A stretch of DNA of 64,000 nucleotides, taken from the NCBI RefSeq assembly GCF_030403505.1, contig NZ_JAUEMJ010000008.1, positions 173,657-237,656 of the forward strand, written 5' to 3'. The stretch comes from Glycomyces tritici. Lineage in GTDB: Bacteria; Actinomycetota; Actinomycetes; Mycobacteriales; Micromonosporaceae. Position numbers and translations under genes: made by a program. Numbering within the stretch: position 1 is the stretch's first letter; every line of letters starts with the position of its first letter. Shown here piece after piece: positions 47,337-55,861 of this stretch. The notes under the pieces are model-generated. The model saw nothing but the letters and a program-made list of their open reading frames with translations, was not told where the DNA came from and made no database searches.

Positions 47337-48019
47337 TGATCGCCGAGGACAACGTCCTGCTCTCGTCCGGGCTCGAACTCCTGCTCGAGTCGAAGGGGTT
47401 CGACATCGTCGCCATCGCCGCCGACGCCCCGGATTTCCTTGCCGCCGTAAAGACCCATCGGCCCGATGTCACCATCGTGGACGTACGCCTGCCCCCGGGC
47501 TTTCGCGACGAGGGCATCCGGGCCGCGGTCCAGGCCCGCCGCGACCACCCCGGCCTGCCGATCCTGGTCCTGTCGCAGTACGTCGAGCAGGCGTACGCGA
47601 GCCGCCTCCTCGCCGACACCCGGGGCGGGATCGGGTACCTGCTCAAGGACCGGGTCAGCCGCGTCGCCGAGTTCACCGAGGCGCTGCGCCGCGTCGCCGA
47701 CGGCGGCACCGCCATGGACCCCGAGGTCATCGCCCAGCTGCTCGCGCAAGGCGATCCGGTGGACGCCCTGACCGCGCGCGAACGCGAGGTGCTCGCGCTG
47801 ATGGCCGAGGGGCACGACAACGCGACCATCGCCAGGCGGTTGTTCATCAGCGACAACGCCGTCCACAAGCACATCGGCAACGTCTTCCTCAAACTCGGCC
47901 TGTCGGTCGAGGACAGCGGCCACCGCCGGGTCCTCGCCGTGCTGGCCTACCTCCGCCGCCACGGCGACACCGGGAACGCGGGGACGGACCGCCGCACCGA
48001 GCTCATTCCTCCGAAGTAG
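47327..48019 (+). CDS. NarL/LuxR-family response regulator
   Basis: The 230-residue regulator has a receiver domain with acidic pocket AEDN, phospho-acceptor Asp52 in VTIVDVRLPPG and Lys in YLLKDRV. A C-terminal LuxR helix-turn-helix follows (LTAREREVLALMAEG, IARRLFISDNAVHKHIGNVF). It is the partner of the overlapping kinase. GTG 47327 follows GGAG. Its 3' end overlaps by 17 nt the convergent SARP gene. A plausible site is the palindrome at 46089-46104. Confidence 0.92.
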   Translation: MRVVIAEDNVLLSSGLELLLESKGFDIVAIAADAPDFLAAVKTHRPDVTIVDVRLPPGFRDEGIRAAVQARRDHPGLPILVLSQYVEQAYASRLLADTRGGIGYLLKDRVSRVAEFTEALRRVADGGTAMDPEVIAQLLAQGDPVDALTAREREVLALMAEGHDNATIARRLFISDNAVHKHIGNVFLKLGLSVEDSGHRRVLAVLAYLRRHGDTGNAGTDRRTELIPPK

Positions 48020-51000
48020 ACCGTTGCGGGCCGACGTCGTACCGGCTCGGCAAGGGCACCTCCGCCTGGGCGTACGCGTCCTCCACCTCGCGCTGGCACC
48101 GGCGGGCCGCGGCCTCGTCGCCTTCGGCGCGGGCGACCGCCCCGAGGAGCCACAGCGACCAGGTCCCGCCGGCGAAGTGCCCGATGGGACGCAGCAGATC
48201 CCTTGCGCGCTCGGCGTGTTCGCGCGCAAGAGCGGTCTCCTCAAGGCGCAGCGCCGCCTCCGCCAGTGCGTTGAGCGCCAGGCCCTCGCGGATGCGGTCG
48301 CCGACCTCGCGGGCCATGTCCAGCGCCGACGAGGCGTCCCTCCGCGCGGCCTCGACCTGCCCGAGCCCGAGGCGGCCGATGGCGCGCTCGATCAACGCGA
48401 GGATCTCGGTGCCCTTGAGGTCGGTCTTCACCGACGTCAGGGCCCGGTTCGCGGCCTCCACCGCCTCCGCATGGCGTTCGAGCCGGTTGAGCGAGAAGGC
48501 GACCGCCACCAGCCCGTCCGACTCGTGCCGCCGGTCGCAGCCCGCCACCCCCGCCCGCGCCACCGCCTCGGCGTACGGGAGCGCGTCCTCGTGCTTGCCG
48601 AGTCCTGAGTAGACCTCCGCAAGGCTGCCCGTCGCCAGCGGCGTGAGCTCGCCGCGCCCCGAGGCCGTCTCGATCCGCATGACCTCGTCCATGAGCCGCT
48701 CGGCGGTCGCCAAGTCCCCCAGCTCGACCGACGCCGACACGAGGCCGCACAGGTGCGACTCCCGCAGCCGCACGTCGCCGATCTCCTCGGCGATGCGCAG
48801 CCCCTCCCGGCGCAGCAGCACCTTCAGGCGCAGATCCCCGAGCATCCCGTAGACCGAACTGAGCGCACCGAGGTTGACGCTCTGGCCGCGCCGCCTCCCG
48901 TGCGCCCGGTTGATCTCGAGCGCCGCCGTCCCGTGCTCGAGCGCGACTTGGGGCCGCCCGATCAGCCAGCACGCCAGCGTCATGTTGTGGTGCGCCGAGG
49001 CCTGGCCCGCAACCCAGCCGATGCGGCGCGAGAGCTCGGCGGCCCTGCCGGCGTGCTCGACCACGCTCCCGAACTCGCGGGCCTTGGCGTACGCGGTGGA
49101 GAGGCACAGCTCGGCCACCGCCTCGCCCGGCCCGCTCCGCTCCTGGAGGGCACCGGTCAAGGCCGCGTCCGCGAGCGCCAGGAAGTCCACGCGGTCCATC
49201 GACGTCCAGGCGTGGGCCCTCAGGGCGTCCGCGAGGCGCCAGGCCACGGCCCCGCGGCCGTGTTCGGCGGCGTAGCGGGCGATCGCGATGAGCTGGTCGC
49301 GCTCCTCCTCGAGCCATCGCGTGGCCGCCTCGGGGGTGTCGAACCGCGGGGGGCCTTGAGCCGGTTCGGGATGCAGCAGCCGGGCGTTGGCGGGGTACCG
49401 GCTCGCGCTGGCCGCGTCGGCGGTCTCGAGGTACCACGCGAAGAGCCGTTCCAGGGCCTCGGCGCGCAGGGGGTCGTCGGCGCCGACGAGGCCGTTCGCG
49501 AAGTCGCGCACCAGGTCGTGCAGCAGCAGCCTGCCGCGGCCGTCCCGGTTGACCATGTTGGCGTTGACCAGTTGCGCCGCGGCGCGCTCGGCCGCCGCCC
49601 AGGTGGTGCCCGCGACCGCGGCGAGCGCGTCGACGGAGAGGGAGCCGACCGGCGCGAGGCCGAACATGCGGAACACCAGCCGGGCCTCGTCGGGCTGCGC
49701 GGCGTACGAGCGGTCGAACGTGGCCTTGACCGCCGTCTCGGGGCTGTCGCCGATCTGCAAGGCCGCCAGGAACTCGCCCGTTGAGAGCCGGTCGGTGTAC
49801 TCGCCGACGCCGTGCGGGCGGTCCGCGAGGTTCGCGGCCGCGATCCGCAGCGCGAGCGGCAGGTAGCCGCACCGGCGGGCGAGCTGGTCGATGTCGCGGT
49901 CCAGGGCCGAGCGGGGCAGCCGCAGCAGGGATTTGAGCAGCGAGATCGCGTCCTCCGACACGAGGGGGGCGAGGGCGAGGTGGACGCCGCCGTGGCGCGC
50001 GAGCAGGTCGCCGAGGCGGTTGCGGCTCGTCACGATCACCAGGGAGCCCGGGCCGCCGGGCAGCAGCGGGGCGACCTGCTCGGCCGATCGCGCGTTGTCG
50101 AGCAGGACGAGCATGCGCCGGTCCGCGGTCTCGGTGCGCAGCCGCGCGGCGGCCTGGTCCACGTCCACGGGGACCTGGTCGTCGGCGAGGCCGAGCGAGC
50201 GCAGCATCGCCGCGAGCGCTTCGATCGGGCGCAGCGCCGGCACCGCCGAGTAGCCGCGCAGGTCCAGGAACAGCTGCCCGTCCGGATAGTCGTGCGCGAT
50301 GCGGCGCGACCAGTGGACCGCCGAGGCGGTCTTGCCGACACCCGCCATGCCGGAGAGCACCACGATCGGGGCGGGCGGGATGCCCTCGGACTCGTCGCCG
50401 AGGCGGGCGGCCTCGAGTTCGCGGAACTCGCTCGCCCGCCCGGTGAACGCGGCGACCTCCGCGGGCAGCTCCCGGGGCGTCACCGCCGCCGCCGGAGCGA
50501 CCTCGATCCGCGCTTCGGCGGGCGGGGCCCACTCGCCCTCGATGCTGTCGGTCGAGACCGTGTCGAGCCGCTTGTCGCCGTTGAGGATCGCGTCGTGGAC
50601 GCGCTGGAGCAGCAGCCCCGGGTCGATGCCCAGCTCCTCGCGCAGCGCCTTGCGGCTCTCGCGGAACACCTGGAGCGCCTCGGCCTGGCGGCCGGACCGG
50701 TACAGCGCCACGGCCCGCAGGGCGGTGAGGCGCTCGCGGAACGGGTGGTCGCTCGCGAGGGCCTCGAACTCGCCGATCACGGAGGCGTGCAGCCCGAGGT
50801 CCAGACGCAGTTCGAGCGATTCCTGGTGCACGAGCGAGCGCAGCTCGCTCAACCGGAGGGCCTCGGCGGCGACCAGTCCGAGCGAGGGCACGTCCGCGTA
50901 CGGCTCGCCGTGCCACAACCCCAGGGCGCGCGAATACAGTGCGGCCGACTGCTCGAGGCGGCCCTCTTTGGACGCGTGCTTCGCCGCGGCCGACCATTCC

Positions 51001-51323
51001 TCGAAAGCCTTGGCGTCGAAGTCGTCCGCCGTCACGATCATGCGGTAACCGGTCGATTCGCGGACGATCCGGCCGTCGGATCCGAGCGCCCGCCGCAATC
51101 GATGCAGATAGACCATAAGGGCGTTTCGGGCGTTATCGGGTACGGTCTCGCCCCAGACCGCATCGGCCAGCGCTTCGAGCGTCACCACCTGGCCGGATCT
51201 GGCCAGCAGGGCCGCGAGGAGTCGGCGCTGGAGCGGCGCGCGGACGAGTAACGGATCGCCGTCGCGGGCGATCGACATGGGACCGAGGACTTTGAATTGG
51301 AGCGCATCCGACATTGCCTGCAC
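48003..51323 (-). CDS. AfsR-like SARP regulator: winged helix, BTAD, NB-ARC, TPR
   Basis: The 1,106-residue regulator has an OmpR-type winged helix (residues ~8-98), a BTAD domain (~105-245), an NB-ARC ATPase (~290-560, Walker A GMAGVGKT at 325-332, Walker B MLVLLDNA) and a long TPR-like array to the end. SARPs activate promoters through direct repeats with 11-bp period, often in secondary metabolism. Such a triple repeat lies at 51433-51462, in front of the divergent HTH gene. Start: GTG 51323 or ATG 51314, both with weak ribosome sites. Confidence 0.9.
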   Translation of the reverse strand: MQAMSDALQFKVLGPMSIARDGDPLLVRAPLQRRLLAALLARSGQVVTLEALADAVWGETVPDNARNALMVYLHRLRRALGSDGRIVRESTGYRMIVTADDFDAKAFEEWSAAAKHASKEGRLEQSAALYSRALGLWHGEPYADVPSLGLVAAEALRLSELRSLVHQESLELRLDLGLHASVIGEFEALASDHPFRERLTALRAVALYRSGRQAEALQVFRESRKALREELGIDPGLLLQRVHDAILNGDKRLDTVSTDSIEGEWAPPAEARIEVAPAAAVTPRELPAEVAAFTGRASEFRELEAARLGDESEGIPPAPIVVLSGMAGVGKTASAVHWSRRIAHDYPDGQLFLDLRGYSAVPALRPIEALAAMLRSLGLADDQVPVDVDQAAARLRTETADRRMLVLLDNARSAEQVAPLLPGGPGSLVIVTSRNRLGDLLARHGGVHLALAPLVSEDAISLLKSLLRLPRSALDRDIDQLARRCGYLPLALRIAAANLADRPHGVGEYTDRLSTGEFLAALQIGDSPETAVKATFDRSYAAQPDEARLVFRMFGLAPVGSLSVDALAAVAGTTWAAAERAAAQLVNANMVNRDGRGRLLLHDLVRDFANGLVGADDPLRAEALERLFAWYLETADAASASRYPANARLLHPEPAQGPPRFDTPEAATRWLEEERDQLIAIARYAAEHGRGAVAWRLADALRAHAWTSMDRVDFLALADAALTGALQERSGPGEAVAELCLSTAYAKAREFGSVVEHAGRAAELSRRIGWVAGQASAHHNMTLACWLIGRPQVALEHGTAALEINRAHGRRRGQSVNLGALSSVYGMLGDLRLKVLLRREGLRIAEEIGDVRLRESHLCGLVSASVELGDLATAERLMDEVMRIETASGRGELTPLATGSLAEVYSGLGKHEDALPYAEAVARAGVAGCDRRHESDGLVAVAFSLNRLERHAEAVEAANRALTSVKTDLKGTEILALIERAIGRLGLGQVEAARRDASSALDMAREVGDRIREGLALNALAEAALRLEETALAREHAERARDLLRPIGHFAGGTWSLWLLGAVARAEGDEAAARRCQREVEDAYAQAEVPLPSRYDVGPQRSTSEE

Positions 51324-51637: not shown

Positions 51638-52090
51638 ATGCCCGGCAGCCGCTACCCCGATCTCGAGCCGATAGACCACATCACCCCGCGCCAGCGGCAG
51701 ATCCTCATACACCTGTTGCGCGGCAAGACCAGAGCGGTCATCGCCGACGACCTGTTCCTGTCGCGGAGCACCGTGAACCGGGACATCCGCGGCATGATCC
51801 GCACGCTCGGGGCATCGTCCCCTGAGGAGCTGGGTGCGCTCGCGTACCGGGCGGGGGTCGTGATCGAGGGCGATCTCGGTTTCAGCGGCGCTCGTGCGGT
51901 GCCGCACGAGCGCCCCGGAAACAGCGCCAGAGCGCCTGCCCGTCACCGAAGACGGGCAGGAGGAACGCCAGGTGGAGGAAGTACCACCAGGCCAGGTCGC
52001 GGTCGGTGCCGGTCAGCCAGAGGACGGCGCCGACCGCGGCGCAGGCGAGCGGCCCCGCCAGCGCGACGAGGGCGTTCCCACCGCGTGTGA
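51638..52090 (+). CDS. Short LuxR-type helix-turn-helix protein with long antisense overlap
   Basis: Residues ~12-72 form a LuxR-type helix-turn-helix (ITPRQRQILIHLLRGKTRAV, LSRSTVNRDIRGMIRTLG) with no sensory domain. The rest (~residues 82-150) is an Arg-rich readthrough antisense to the end of the HExxH gene. It also crosses a strong hairpin at 51887-51914. A real protein would probably end near residue 75-80; a one-base shift would use TGA at 51860. Either the frame lost its stop or the tail is natural. It is probably a regulator of the peptide locus. Confidence 0.65.
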   Translation: MPGSRYPDLEPIDHITPRQRQILIHLLRGKTRAVIADDLFLSRSTVNRDIRGMIRTLGASSPEELGALAYRAGVVIEGDLGFSGARAVPHERPGNSARAPARHRRRAGGTPGGGSTTRPGRGRCRSARGRRRPRRRRAAPPARRGRSHRV

Positions 52091-52406
52091 TGGTCCCTTC
52101 TGGAATGAGGGACGTCCGCCATGCGGTGGTCTCCACGGTGACACCGGTGATGCCCGGGAGGGTCTTGAGCACCATGGCGTGCGCCGACTCGTGCAGGGCG
52201 AACGAGGCGACGAGCCCGAGCATCCCGCTCTTGGCGCACAGGAGCGCCAGGAGGACCAGGCCGGAGTCGCCCGAGCGCGCCCACCAGGCCAGTGCGGCGA
52301 GGGTGAGGAGCCCGAGGAACGCGGCGAGCGGCCAGACCGAGGCGGCCACGGCCCAGGCCACTCGGAGGACCCGCAGTTCACCCGGCGGGTACGTTGTCCG
52401 CGCCAC
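51882..52406 (-). CDS. Membrane metalloprotease-like protein (HExxH, M50-like)
   Basis: The 174-residue protein has about four to five hydrophobic helices. HESAH (residues 72-76), inside a helix (SFALHESAHAMVLKTLPG), is an intramembrane HExxH zinc motif. LPVFGDGQALW near residue 155 could supply the third ligand, as the LDG motif does in site-2 proteases. It resembles small M50-like proteins such as YydH of peptide operons. It is the last gene of the operon with the peptide and ABC genes and could cut the peptide within the membrane. GTG 52406 overlaps the previous gene by 29 nt. Confidence 0.65.
   Translation of the reverse strand: MARTTYPPGELRVLRVAWAVAASVWPLAAFLGLLTLAALAWWARSGDSGLVLLALLCAKSGMLGLVASFALHESAHAMVLKTLPGITGVTVETTAWRTSLIPEGTITRGGNALVALAGPLACAAVGAVLWLTGTDRDLAWWYFLHLAFLLPVFGDGQALWRCFRGARAAPHERR
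51887..51914. terminator. Hairpin at the convergent end of the peptide operon
   Basis: Perfect 13-bp arms (51887-51899 and 51902-51914) meet at a 2-nt centre. It overlaps the last codons of the HExxH gene and lies inside the rightward HTH frame, so it could terminate both transcripts. Confidence 0.65.
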
Positions 52407-52725
52407 GGCCGCGCATTTCCTGGAGCAGGTGTTCGCGCCGCTGCTTCAGCCGCCGGAACATGACCTGGATGAGGGCGAGCTGGAGGGCCAGCACCGCGAA
52501 GATGATGATGATCGGCACGGGGTTCCCCACCCCGGCGGTGATGTCCACGACCCCGTCGGGGCGTTCGACGGCGTCGAACTTCAAGGCCCCGAACAGGCCC
52601 GTCCGGTGGACGTCACCGCTGTTGTCACCGGTGAACATCAGCACCAGCATGGCGCCGACCGTTATCACGAGGGTGAGCAGTCCCGCTCCGGCTACGGAGT
52701 TGATGACCAGCAGCGCCTTTCTCAT
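52378..52725 (-). CDS. Small two-helix membrane protein of the peptide operon
   Basis: The 115-residue protein has a first membrane helix at residues ~7-32 and a second at ~70-92, ending in a basic tail (FRRLKQRREHLLQEM). The loop between them is ~35 residues. I do not recognise the family. It starts at ATG 52725 after AAGGAGG, inside the last 101 nt of the ABC permease. Its position among export genes suggests an accessory or immunity role, which is inference only. Confidence 0.7.
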   Translation of the reverse strand: MRKALLVINSVAGAGLLTLVITVGAMLVLMFTGDNSGDVHRTGLFGALKFDAVERPDGVVDITAGVGNPVPIIIIFAVLALQLALIQVMFRRLKQRREHLLQEMRGRGADNVPAG

Positions 52726-54139
52726 TGCGCCTCCTTGATTCGTCGAGGTGGATGCCTTGGATTGCGTATGCGGCGAAGAGCGCGGTGGCGCCGGCCAGGA
52801 CGGCGCCCATCGCCCACGGGGAGAGGCTGAGCACGCCGAGCCCGATGACGACGAGGCCCGCGACGACGGCGACGGCCGAGAGGCCGAGGAACACCGAGAG
52901 CGGGTTGTCCTTCTCCGCCGGGAAGATCACGCCGATGCCGGTGGTGATGACCGCGCTCGCGGCGGCGGCCGCGATCATCTGCCAGCCGTCCGCGGCCCAG
53001 TCGGGGTCGACGACGGCCGCGGTGAGCGTGAACGGGACCGCGAACACACTGATGAGCACGCACTGGGCGCGCAGCAGGCGGGCGAACACCCGCCGGGCCG
53101 GGACCCGGGTGCCGGGGATCGCTCGCAGCACCGCGGTGGCCGTGAACTGGTACAGGCCGCCGACGGTGAGGAGCGAGAGCGCCCAGATCGGGTTGGCGGC
53201 GCCGGTCAGCAGCAGGTAGATGAACAGTGCGACGGCGAGCATCGCGGCGGTGGCGGTGTGGGAGCTGCGGATCAGGCACCAGTCGTAGGGCGAGAGGAGC
53301 CTGCGGCCCCATGAGCCGGCCCGGACGTTCAGGTACCGGGACTGTCGAATGTGGCGGTTCGGGGAGAGTGCGACGGCGAGGACGGCGAGGAGTGCGGCCG
53401 CGGTGACCGATGCGGTGAGCACCGGCACCAGGCCGTGGTCGTCCGCTGCGTCCGCGATCGCCGTGGCCCACAGGCGGGAGGGCTCCTCGTCGAGGAAGGC
53501 GGTGGTGATGCGGGTGATCATCGAGCCGGAGAGGGAGGCGTACACCGCCACGAGCACGAAGAGGACCAGGATGTTGAGGATGCTCGCGACCCGCTCGAGC
53601 CGCGCGAGTGTCCACAGTCGAGTCATGAGCTGGTGGAGCACGGACAGCACGAGGTAGGCGAGGACCGCGGGCAGGACCACCGAGACCGTGATCGGGCCGA
53701 ACGAGGCCGGCCCGAGGAGGATGACCGCATTGGCGACCAGTGCGAACACTCCCGCGGCGGCGACCACGCCGGTCATCGCGGCCTCGTAGAGGAGGAACGC
53801 CAGCGACCGCTCGCGGTTGGTCACCGGCATCTGGAAGCTCAGCTCCAGCAGCCCGTCCGCGTTCACGAAGAGCACCTTCACGGTGAGGAACGCGATCTGG
53901 ACCCACAGGAGCGCGGAGACCGTCGTGGTGTCGAACAGCAGGTCCCACACTTCGCGCCGCTCGGTCAGCTGCTCGAGGAAGAAGTACGCGGCTACGGTGA
54001 GGACGGCGACGAAGAGCACGCCCGCGGCGAGTGCGCCGATGCGCACCGGCACGGATTTGAGGACCCCGACGGACAGGACGCGGCGCCGGAAGAACACCAG
54101 CAGCATCCTGGCGAGGACGAGCGACTGTCGGAGGCGCAT
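52625..54139 (-). CDS. ABC-2-like exporter permease of the peptide operon
   Basis: The 504-residue membrane protein has about twelve hydrophobic segments (for example VLFVAVLTVAAYFFLEQL, ATAAMLAVALFIYLLLTG). It pairs with the ATPase encoded 2 nt upstream. No ATPase or peptidase domain is fused, unlike PCAT exporters. The C-terminal ~35 residues overlap the next gene in another frame and are rich in Arg/Gly, so the original stop may have been lost. By context it exports the 88-residue peptide or gives immunity to it. Confidence 0.78.
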   Translation of the reverse strand: MRLRQSLVLARMLLVFFRRRVLSVGVLKSVPVRIGALAAGVLFVAVLTVAAYFFLEQLTERREVWDLLFDTTTVSALLWVQIAFLTVKVLFVNADGLLELSFQMPVTNRERSLAFLLYEAAMTGVVAAAGVFALVANAVILLGPASFGPITVSVVLPAVLAYLVLSVLHQLMTRLWTLARLERVASILNILVLFVLVAVYASLSGSMITRITTAFLDEEPSRLWATAIADAADDHGLVPVLTASVTAAALLAVLAVALSPNRHIRQSRYLNVRAGSWGRRLLSPYDWCLIRSSHTATAAMLAVALFIYLLLTGAANPIWALSLLTVGGLYQFTATAVLRAIPGTRVPARRVFARLLRAQCVLISVFAVPFTLTAAVVDPDWAADGWQMIAAAAASAVITTGIGVIFPAEKDNPLSVFLGLSAVAVVAGLVVIGLGVLSLSPWAMGAVLAGATALFAAYAIQGIHLDESRRRNEKGAAGHQLRSRSGTAHPRDNGRRHAGADVHR

Positions 54140-54141
54140 CG

Positions 54142-54858
54142 CTATCGCGCGTCCGACTCGAGGTACTCGAAGACCATCGCGGCCAGCGAGCCGTGCTCCT
54201 CCACGAGGTCGCCGGCGGGGGCGTCGTAGATGACCTGCCCGAAGTCCAGGAGGACGATCCGGTCGGCCAGGCGCTCCAGGACGGCGAAGTCGTGCGTGCA
54301 GAGCAGTATGGACCGCCCCTCGTCGCGGGCGCGCGCGAACTCGGCCTCCGCGAGCCGCAGGGCCTCCAGGTCGATGCCGTTCAGCGTCTCGTCGATCACG
54401 GTGAGGGGGCGCCGCATGACCAGGGCCGAGACCAGCTGGGTCTTCTTTCGCATGCCGTGGGAGTAATCCTCGATCAAATGGTCGTACCGCTCGGCCATGG
54501 CGAACTGCCGGAACAGGTCCGCGGCCTCCCCGTGGTCGACCGCGACGCCGTAGAGGGACGCCGTCATGGCCACGTACTCGCGCGCGGTGAGGAACTCGGG
54601 GAGGTAGTCGTTGCTGGAGAGGTACATGCCGTGGGCCCTCGCGCGCGGGTGGTCGTGCCGGTGCCCGCCGATGAGGACGCTGCCCGACTGCAGCCGCAGC
54701 AGGTCGAAGACGTTCTTGATGAGCGTCGACTTGCCGGACCCGTTCGGGCCGATGAGGCCGACGATCGATCCGGCCTCCACTTCGAACGACACGTCCGCCA
54801 CGGCCTTGACGACGCCGTCGTACGAATAGGAGAGACCCTCGATTTCCAGGAGCGCCAT
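54142..54858 (-). CDS. ABC ATPase of the peptide operon
   Basis: The 238-residue ATPase has Walker A GPNGSGKSTLI and Walker B LTVIDETLNGID. The signature is degenerate, YSHGMRKKTQLVSAL, as in many ABC-2 drug and bacteriocin transport ATPases (SxGMxxR/K type). ATG 54858 follows GAAGG. It works with the permease encoded 2 nt downstream and is separated from the peptide gene by a hairpin, so it is probably expressed at a lower level than the peptide. Confidence 0.88.
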   Translation of the reverse strand: MALLEIEGLSYSYDGVVKAVADVSFEVEAGSIVGLIGPNGSGKSTLIKNVFDLLRLQSGSVLIGGHRHDHPRARAHGMYLSSNDYLPEFLTAREYVAMTASLYGVAVDHGEAADLFRQFAMAERYDHLIEDYSHGMRKKTQLVSALVMRRPLTVIDETLNGIDLEALRLAEAEFARARDEGRSILLCTHDFAVLERLADRIVLLDFGQVIYDAPAGDLVEEHGSLAAMVFEYLESDAR

Positions 54859-54892
54859 GGTGTCCTTCCCGCTGCGTTGCTCTATTGCGAAA

Positions 54893-54926
54893 GTGGCCCG
54901 GGAATGCGCGTGGCATCCCGGGCCAC
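54893..54926 (-). terminator. Attenuator-like hairpin between peptide and ABC genes
   Basis: A 14-bp stem with one bulged A (GTGGCCCGGGA paired with TCCCGGGCCAC, plus TGC/GCA) is followed on the minus strand by TTT. It lies between the peptide stop (54971) and ATPase start (54858). Partial termination here would give many peptide transcripts and fewer transporter transcripts, a usual pattern in bacteriocin operons. Confidence 0.65.
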
Positions 54927-54970
54927 CATGTTCGCTGTTTAAATCGCCGGTGATGTCGACTCTTTCGAGG

Positions 54971-55237
54971 CTACACACACTGGACGTTGATGGAAACGCC
55001 CGACCAGCTCCAGTTCCAGCTACCGGTGAATCGCTTCCCCTTGTAGACGACGCACCAGATCGAGAGACCTGCGAGAATCGTGACACCAAGGGCGAGGATC
55101 ACGGCGAGCAGCACCACGTACCAGGCGTCGTACCGAACGAGAGCGCTGTCGAGCTTCCCCTTCATGGTCTCGACGGCCTGGGCGGCACCGACCTGAGCCT
55201 TGACGACCGGCTTGATCGCCATAGTTGAGATAGACAT
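54971..55237 (-). CDS. 88-residue single-TM peptide, candidate secreted-peptide precursor
   Basis: The peptide starts at ATG 55237 behind a strong AAAGGAGG site. Residues 1-37 are polar, residues ~38-65 form one hydrophobic helix (AWYVVLLAVILALGVTIL) and the last 23 residues are KGKR followed by a Trp-rich segment, FTGSWNWSWSGV, and Cys87. Cys62 lies at the helix end. I find no similarity to a known bacteriocin. The strong ribosome site, following hairpin, ABC pair and HExxH membrane protein fit a precursor whose C-terminal part is released. A small structural membrane protein is the alternative. Confidence 0.7.
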   Translation of the reverse strand: MSISTMAIKPVVKAQVGAAQAVETMKGKLDSALVRYDAWYVVLLAVILALGVTILAGLSIWCVVYKGKRFTGSWNWSWSGVSINVQCV

Positions 55238-55238
55238 T

Positions 55239-55646
55239 TCATTGCCTCCTTTCGAGTGTCGAACTCGAAATCAATGATTCCGGTTCGGCGAGGATTTCGA
55301 AAGTGTCGGAAACGCCACTCTTCAAGCGGAGTGCGCGTTGTCGGTGAGAGGCGATGACGGCCGCTTCCGAACGCGATGCGATCGTCAGTTTCGCAAAGAT
55401 GCCGGCGATGTGCTTGCGCACTGTCCGCTCGGTGATGAACAGAGTCGATGCGATCTTCGCATTCGAGAGGCAGTCGCCGAGGGCGAGCATGATCTCGCAT
55501 TCACGGGAAGTCAAAGAGGACACATCCGCGGCGTGCGCCCACGGCGGGGCCTCACAGGCGTGCCGGTACTCGCACGGCGCCGGGGGTTCGGTGCGCAGTG
55601 CATCGGAAGGCGCCGCACGGCCTTCGGCAAGGCGTTGCAATGTCAT
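55239..55646 (-). CDS. LuxR-type helix-turn-helix regulator heading the peptide operon
   Basis: The 135-residue protein has a polar N-terminus and a LuxR helix-turn-helix at residues ~50-105 (LTSRECEIMLALGDCLSNAK, FITERTVRKHIAGIFAKL), with no receiver domain. ATG 55646 is my choice; the frame is open far upstream but with shadow-like composition. Its stop lies 1 nt before the peptide ATG, and its last codons carry the peptide's ribosome site. Regulator and peptide are therefore co-transcribed. It may read peptide levels, directly or indirectly. Confidence 0.75.
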   Translation of the reverse strand: MTLQRLAEGRAAPSDALRTEPPAPCEYRHACEAPPWAHAADVSSLTSRECEIMLALGDCLSNAKIASTLFITERTVRKHIAGIFAKLTIASRSEAAVIASHRQRALRLKSGVSDTFEILAEPESLISSSTLERRQ

Positions 55647-55778
55647 GGCTCCATTCGCGACCGGGGGCGGTGACCGTGGTCCAGCCGTCACAGCGTGGCG
55701 ACCGGCCCGAATCAATGTCGCAGCAACCCCGTGCGCGGCACAACCGCGACAGCGTGAATCGCCCCGGTCGGCGCGACT

Positions 55779-55795
55779 TTGCGTCGGCGACGCAA
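55779..55795. promoter_or_regulatory. Perfect palindrome upstream of the peptide operon
   Basis: TTGCGTCG-G-CGACGCAA has perfect 8-bp arms around one base. It lies 133 nt upstream of the LuxR start and may be an operator for the peptide operon. No matching copy was seen near the other HTH gene. Confidence 0.4.
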
Positions 55796-55812
55796 TGCCT
55801 GCGCCGCAAATC

Positions 55813-55842
55813 GGCCGGGCCGGGTGGCGACCCGGCCCGGCC
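55813..55842 (-). terminator. Terminator of the DUF5648-like gene
   Basis: A perfect 13-bp GC stem (55813-55825 with 55830-55842) with loop GGCG lies 20 nt after the leftward stop at 55862. It also insulates the peptide operon downstream. Confidence 0.8.
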
Positions 55843-55861
55843 CCCCTCCGTGCTCCTGGCC

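Follow-up and report, generated by a model that had tools for sequence, protein, structure and literature searches.

Organization of the locus

The stretch of DNA considered here (the window; 64,000 nucleotides) derives from a Glycomyces-like actinomycete and contains, at positions 51882–55646, a run of six minus-strand genes that very probably places a complete TMcin biosynthetic operon in this organism. TMcins were published as a bacteriocin class in August 2025 (PMC12328743), and their biosynthesis is described in a 2026 preprint (PMC13252029); statements about the class below refer to the main texts of these two papers. They are antibacterial peptides that retain a membrane-spanning helix, reported from Bacillota and Actinomycetota in three gene arrangements (PMC12328743). 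The core operon comprises the precursor gene tmcA, the ABC transporter genes tmcBC, tmcE for a two-helix escort protein, and tmcP for a site-2-type HExxH protease (PMC12328743, PMC13252029). Homologs of all five are found in the window in the order tmcA-B-C-E-P, with a luxR-type gene ahead of them, as follows.

55239..55646, minus strand: receiver-less LuxR-type (GerE) regulator, 135 amino acids (Pfam GerE, E 2e-15)
54971..55237, minus strand: tmcA, precursor of 88 amino acids, with leader 1–37, transmembrane (TM) helix at approximately 40–61 and tail 62–88 predicted from family alignments and an AlphaFold model
55127..55237, minus strand: predicted TmcA leader, residues 1–37, placed by position (conservation step and Cys numbering)
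54974..55126, minus strand: predicted mature TmcA peptide, residues 38–88 (51 amino acids), with a C62–C87 disulfide expected from the published class
54887..54935, minus strand: stem-loop between tmcA and tmcB, from folding of the 112-nt interval
54142..54858, minus strand: tmcB, ABC ATPase, 238 amino acids (ABC_tran, E 9e-22)
52625..54139, minus strand: tmcC, permease, 504 amino acids, its final 101 nt shared with tmcE (open reading frame (ORF) and length in close relatives)
52378..52725, minus strand: tmcE, two-helix membrane protein, 115 amino acids (profile homologs in 38 of 58 loci)
51882..52406, minus strand: tmcP, HExxH membrane protein, 174 amino acids (H72, E73, H76, P151, D155 and G156 invariant among 44 aligned)

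Every gene was confirmed at these coordinates. An earlier reading of the DNA letters without database searches (the sequence-only reading) had grouped the six genes as a system in which a precursor peptide is processed by an HExxH protease and leaves the cell through an ABC transporter, which matches the TMcin class. It had described them as separated by gaps or overlaps of 1–2 nt, apart from the tmcA–tmcB interval; this is true of luxR/tmcA (1-nt gap) and tmcB/tmcC (2-nt gap), whereas tmcC and tmcE overlap by 101 nt and tmcE and tmcP by 29 nt. The tmcC gene ends at 52625; TmcC of close relatives is equally long and has a similar tail. Glycomyces and Streptomyces loci, as well as several from other actinobacteria, share an overlap of 101–107 nt between tmcC and tmcE; in most other loci the overlap is 29 nt or less, and in one (L015) it is 293 nt as called.

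Staphylococcus epidermidis plasmid pHOB2 (L101) was used for profile comparison as a staphylococcal stand-in for the described system, TMcin-G1905. Its cassette encodes an ABC protein, a permease, a small protein and a metalloprotease, followed by a 297-bp gene, the published length of tmcA. The five pHOB2 proteins match the family profiles with E values of 5e-28 to 4e-94 (calculated for a seven-protein file), and the window proteins by BLAST with E values of 2e-7 to 2e-52. The pHOB2 cysteines are 24 apart, not 25. The plasmid type has the order B-C-E-P-A, as opposed to A-B-C-E-P in the window.

Precursor, processing and export

TmcA displays the features that define a TMcin precursor, a single TM helix flanked by conserved Trp residues and two conserved Cys residues. 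All 42 aligned sequences share W39, A45, V46, C62, F70, G72 and C87, and nearly all share W61. Across 56 peptides taken from the loci, the region preceding the helix is variable and conservation steps up at A38/W39; mean information is 1.62 bits for the leader, 3.32 for the helix and 2.77 for the tail. The AlphaFold model (mean predicted local distance difference test score (pLDDT) 70) comprises one helix (residues 9–65) and two strands (70–77 and 80–87). The tail, previously described as Trp-rich, is so, and is furthermore predicted to form a β-hairpin ending in the invariant C87; with F70 and G72 also invariant, the conservation of the C-terminus, which the sequence-only reading had named as a test, is borne out. 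A possible kinship between TmcA and TmcE was not detectable by profile comparison (hhalign probability 1).

In TMcin-G1905, a 45-residue leader is cut off by TmcP, a DUF3267-family HExxH site-2-type protease, the first Cys is residue 25 of the mature peptide, activity needs a C25–C50 disulfide, and export proceeds via TmcBC (PMC13252029). The peptide was purified in secreted, processed form and consists of a helix plus a two-stranded hairpin (PMC12328743). With C62 taken as the counterpart of C25, residue 1 of the window product would fall 24 residues earlier, at A38. In 52 of 56 family rows the next Cys follows the A/G of the AW motif at a distance of 24 residues, and the remaining four (L024, L030, L045 and L050) have an extra Cys inside the helix. 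By position, TmcA would thus be cut at 37/38 and the helix kept in a 51-residue product, for which a C62–C87 disulfide is expected by analogy with the class. The predicted monoisotopic mass of the disulfide-bonded 51-mer is 5623.0 Da, a value that can be looked for.

The sequence-only reading had instead placed the cut near residues 60–66, with export of the Trp-rich C-terminal part alone. The conserved tail and the presence of a site-2-type protease are in keeping with such a model, but the helix is conserved above the tail, as expected of a product more than of an anchor that is discarded. Moreover, the published class removes the leader and retains the helix, TMcin-G1905 being the precedent, and a cut at 60–66 would hit or adjoin C62, the counterpart of a Cys whose disulfide is required for activity. 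Export of the tail alone is therefore very unlikely, and removal of a 37-residue leader is preferred.

The putative processing enzyme TmcP carries the motifs HESAH and LPVFGDG. Residues H72, E73, H76, P151, D155 and G156, invariant in the alignment of 44 TmcP sequences, reproduce the published signature of the TMcin site-2 protease, an HExxH motif with distal Pro and Asp. The match of the window protein to DUF3267 scores 18.2 bits, under the cut-off of 27.1, and 16 of the 44 family members match this model at E 0.05. TmcE, with its two membrane spans, is required for cleavage in the TMcin class (PMC13252029), and the two-helix protein of the window would by homology fill this escort role.

The permease had been described as ABC-2-like. 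Pfam returns no match for the window protein, and a weak match to ABC2_membrane_3 for one of 25 family members. The TmcC model is of good quality (pLDDT 85, predicted template modeling score (pTM) 0.84), with residues 476–504, the tail encoded in the overlap with tmcE, below pLDDT 50. Foldseek gave no significant fold match for it. In a second look, with VIA alone, rows 1–12 were all ABC exporters, mostly of type V/ABC-2, and include NosDFY, a mycobacterial efflux pump, ABCG5/G8, Wzm-Wzt and LptB2FGC. The predicted model resembles ABC-2/type V permeases in this second look, and TmcC may have the single-chain type V (ABC-2) permease fold of the TMcin class.

The receiver-less LuxR-type gene is a feature of one part of the family. 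In a phmmer search of loci L001–L056 that admitted E values to 1e-2 and distances to 5 kb from tmcA, each of the 11 Glycomyces and Streptomyces loci has a homolog of the regulator directly ahead of tmcA; the other 45 loci gave only weak matches, in L033 and L042, at 1.7–2.5 kb upstream. The luxR frame continues into tmcA without a stop in three of 12 loci (L001, L004 and L008; the twelfth is the window, where a TGA separates the two genes), and these three could encode a LuxR-TmcA fusion. A search of 54800–55860 for promoter- or terminator-like consensus sites found none.

The hairpin noted earlier in the 112-nt tmcA–tmcB interval is strong (minimum free energy −44.2, z −4.8). Hairpins with z of −2 or lower, relative to simple shuffles, lie within 130 nt 3′ of tmcA in 18 of 24 relatives, with differing sequences; the six in which this value is not reached are L009, L012, L018, L039, L046 and L048.

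By analogy with TMcin-G1905, TmcA would start out as a single-helix membrane protein of 88 residues, from which TmcP (HExxH/PxxxDG, site-2-type), aided by TmcE, would cut the 37-residue leader ahead of the helix. The C62–C87 disulfide would close the β-hairpin, here probably through host DsbA/VKOR proteins, a route proposed because the six-gene run is without tmcD. TmcBC would then pull the 51-residue product out of the membrane and release it. TMcin-G1905 forms large pores and targets Gram-positive bacteria (PMC12328743); the window product would likewise insert in Gram-positive target membranes and oligomerize to a pore. Expression of the operon is probably under the control of the LuxR protein; readthrough is probably lowered by the hairpin 3′ of tmcA, such that precursor would exceed transporter.

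A second small GerE-domain ORF (51638–52090, plus strand) is convergent with tmcP and overlaps its 3′ end. Downstream, 48003–51323 (minus strand) encodes a large BTAD/SARP-type regulator with tetratricopeptide repeats, and similar ORFs also lie downstream of the cassette in Glycomyces loci L001 and L002.

Distribution of the family and a PqqD-bearing branch

A first search with TmcA returned 15 relatives, and a search with an alignment as query returned 183 at E 0.01, 120 of which were listed. Source names among these 120 are "hypothetical" or "uncharacterized" protein, and one (P0206) bears a precomputed Pfam label, PF20214. Scans for TmcA loci gave 55 on genome contigs, one on a viral contig (L056) and two on plasmids, 58 in total. 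The peptide of Glycomyces algeriensis DSM 44727 is 97% identical to that of the window. L056 is a complete cassette on a 53-kb contig of the IMG/VR viral collection, the viral origin of which is putative.

The association of the peptide with the ABC and HExxH genes, predicted by the sequence-only reading, is found in 50 of the 58 loci, across Actinomycetota and Bacillota, where an ATPase, a permease and an HExxH gene all lie nearby; 34 have all four partners when the two-helix profile is included. Five of the eight remaining loci end at a contig end (L013, L026, L036, L042 and L046), and in a sixth (L057) an annotated 472-residue protein adjoins a distant ATPase. The two real exceptions are the Peribacillus plasmid L058, on which no HExxH match was found anywhere, and Kandleria L027, where no permease was found in the whole genome and all HExxH matches are stop-interrupted. 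Kandleria vitulina L027 keeps the peptide and the two-helix gene, and is possibly a decayed cluster.

Peptide and permease also co-occur across genomes of three genera. Both are present in the same four of 22 Glycomyces genomes and the same 24 of 44 Bacillus genomes; in Streptomyces the peptide is found in four of 246 genomes and the permease in the same four, plus one fragment. Among the 312 genomes together, 32 have both, 279 have neither, and one has a permease fragment alone. Four of the 32 (G001, G002, G012 and G013) were known beforehand to hold the cassette, and the Streptomyces permease absences are slightly softer, given that six first-look candidates were scored in most of the genomes shown. 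In these three genera the peptide and permease thus travel together.

Such strict co-occurrence, together with the strong conservation of the helix, would also be expected if the small protein belonged to the ABC transporter as a structural subunit and were not a product. However, one Caldalkalibacillus cassette (L031) has two tandem precursor genes, which is easier to explain for a substrate, and purification of the homolog TMcin-G1905 showed it to be secreted and processed (PMC12328743). We regard the subunit explanation as having a negligible probability, and TmcA as the precursor of an exported peptide. At L031, the permease is split in two ORFs.

One branch of the family differs in its protease. 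It comprises 15 loci from Bacillus, Romboutsia, Paraclostridium and Marininema (L038–L041, L043, L044, L046–L049 and L051–L055), all with the peptide, ABC ATPase and permease, and 14 with the HExxH domain (L046 ends at a contig end). An N-terminal PqqD domain (PF05402) was found on TmcP in 14 of 14 full-length branch proteins scanned, those of all the loci other than L046 (best E 2.5e-14). In the alignment of 44 TmcP sequences (A3), which contains four full-length branch proteins and three lacking the N-terminus, four matched PqqD. The leader is 19–22 residues in all 15 branch peptides and 28–59 in 38 of the 41 others, one of the remaining three (L034) ending at a contig end. A small two-helix protein follows tmcP in the six branch loci examined, and is distantly TmcE-like (hhalign probability 65).

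A second variable concerns oxidoreductases. The preprint describes tmcD as missing outside staphylococci (PMC13252029). Thioredoxin-fold CxxC genes lie beside the cassette at L016, L023, L024, L030, L036 and L057, and Thioredoxin_4 genes at L039, L047 and L048, nine non-staphylococcal loci overall, which bear on that statement; these neighbors may do the job of tmcD. In two Glycomyces genomes (G001 and G272), Thioredoxin_4 and VKOR genes are located elsewhere than the cassette.

A word search of the main texts of both TMcin papers found no mention of PqqD or of the RRE (recognition element of ribosomally synthesized and post-translationally modified peptides, RiPPs), and a search for PqqD and site-2 protease together found no paper in the library covered. 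The PqqD domain on TmcP and the thioredoxin-like neighbors outside staphylococci are possibly new points with respect to those main texts. A tentative proposal, which we consider somewhat less likely to be right than wrong, is that there are two routes of finding the leader, a PqqD-fused protease docking a leader of 19–22 residues and, in the window branch, a longer leader dealt with by way of TmcE and with no PqqD domain, and that oxidoreductase partners are general and replaceable, not a staphylococcal speciality. If true, one Bacillota branch would have an intramembrane protease guided by a recognition element.

Comparison with known systems

The gene order had been likened to that of Bacillus subtilis yydFGHIJ, a parallel that proves to be a loose one. 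The yyd locus, too, encodes an ABC transporter and a membrane protease alongside its small precursor; it differs in its radical-SAM epimerase and in a precursor that is not known to be related. As the sequence-only reading had noted for modification enzymes, no radical-SAM or LanM-type domain was found among the scanned proteins of the cassette and its flanks (a subset of the ORFs of the window), and assignment as an epipeptide was rejected for want of the epimerase domain in this set. Daptides are hydrophobic helical peptides, and have an HExxH intramembrane protease, judging by the name of NCBI model NF041824. TmcP scores 11.4 bits against this model, the cut-off of which is 300 (E 0.13 for the window protein, 0.003 for that of Bacillus L040); this is noise level, and assignment as a daptide was also rejected.

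This weak similarity of TmcP to NF041824 is what could be cited for a daptide- or epipeptide-type RiPP with modification enzymes encoded elsewhere. Apart from the low score, no daptide modification enzymes were found among the proteins scanned, the recurrent neighbor families, some of them domain-checked, resemble regulators, thioredoxins, transporters and kinases, and a cysteine desulfurase at L030 and L057 was the only modification-suggestive enzyme noticed. A modified RiPP of either type is thus extremely unlikely, in contrast to a TMcin.

The window operon differs from that of TMcin-G1905 in several respects. The six genes include no tmcD/DsbA gene, a LuxR-type gene stands where staphylococci have a regulatory pair, and the predicted leader is 37 residues as opposed to 45. 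The published pore model includes a Lys32–Glu49 salt bridge (PMC12328743); position 49 in the window is Gln, not Glu, which precludes a bridge of this kind. Glu is the usual residue here, found in 34 of the 39 relatives that align in register, against three with Gln, one with Ser and one with His.

The substitution of Glu49, the LuxR regulator attached in the window branch, and the fact that the actinobacterial members are known here from sequence alone could be taken to suggest a TMcin homolog with the same maturation that serves as a signal or surface-active peptide instead of a pore-forming bacteriocin. However, the core residues of the pore class (W39, A45, V46, C62, F70, G72 and C87) are retained, and a patchy spread, as in Streptomyces, suits a weapon at least equally. 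We consider a signaling role unlikely, and a bacteriocin the better explanation.

The similarities to TMcin-G1905 extend to the same five core gene types: a single-helix precursor with identical Cys–Cys spacing of 25 (C25/C50, and C62/C87 in the window), a protease with HExxH and distal Pro/Asp, an ABC ATPase and permease, and a two-helix protein. While the locus had been put forward as a new system for peptide production and export, it is an additional member of the published TMcin class.

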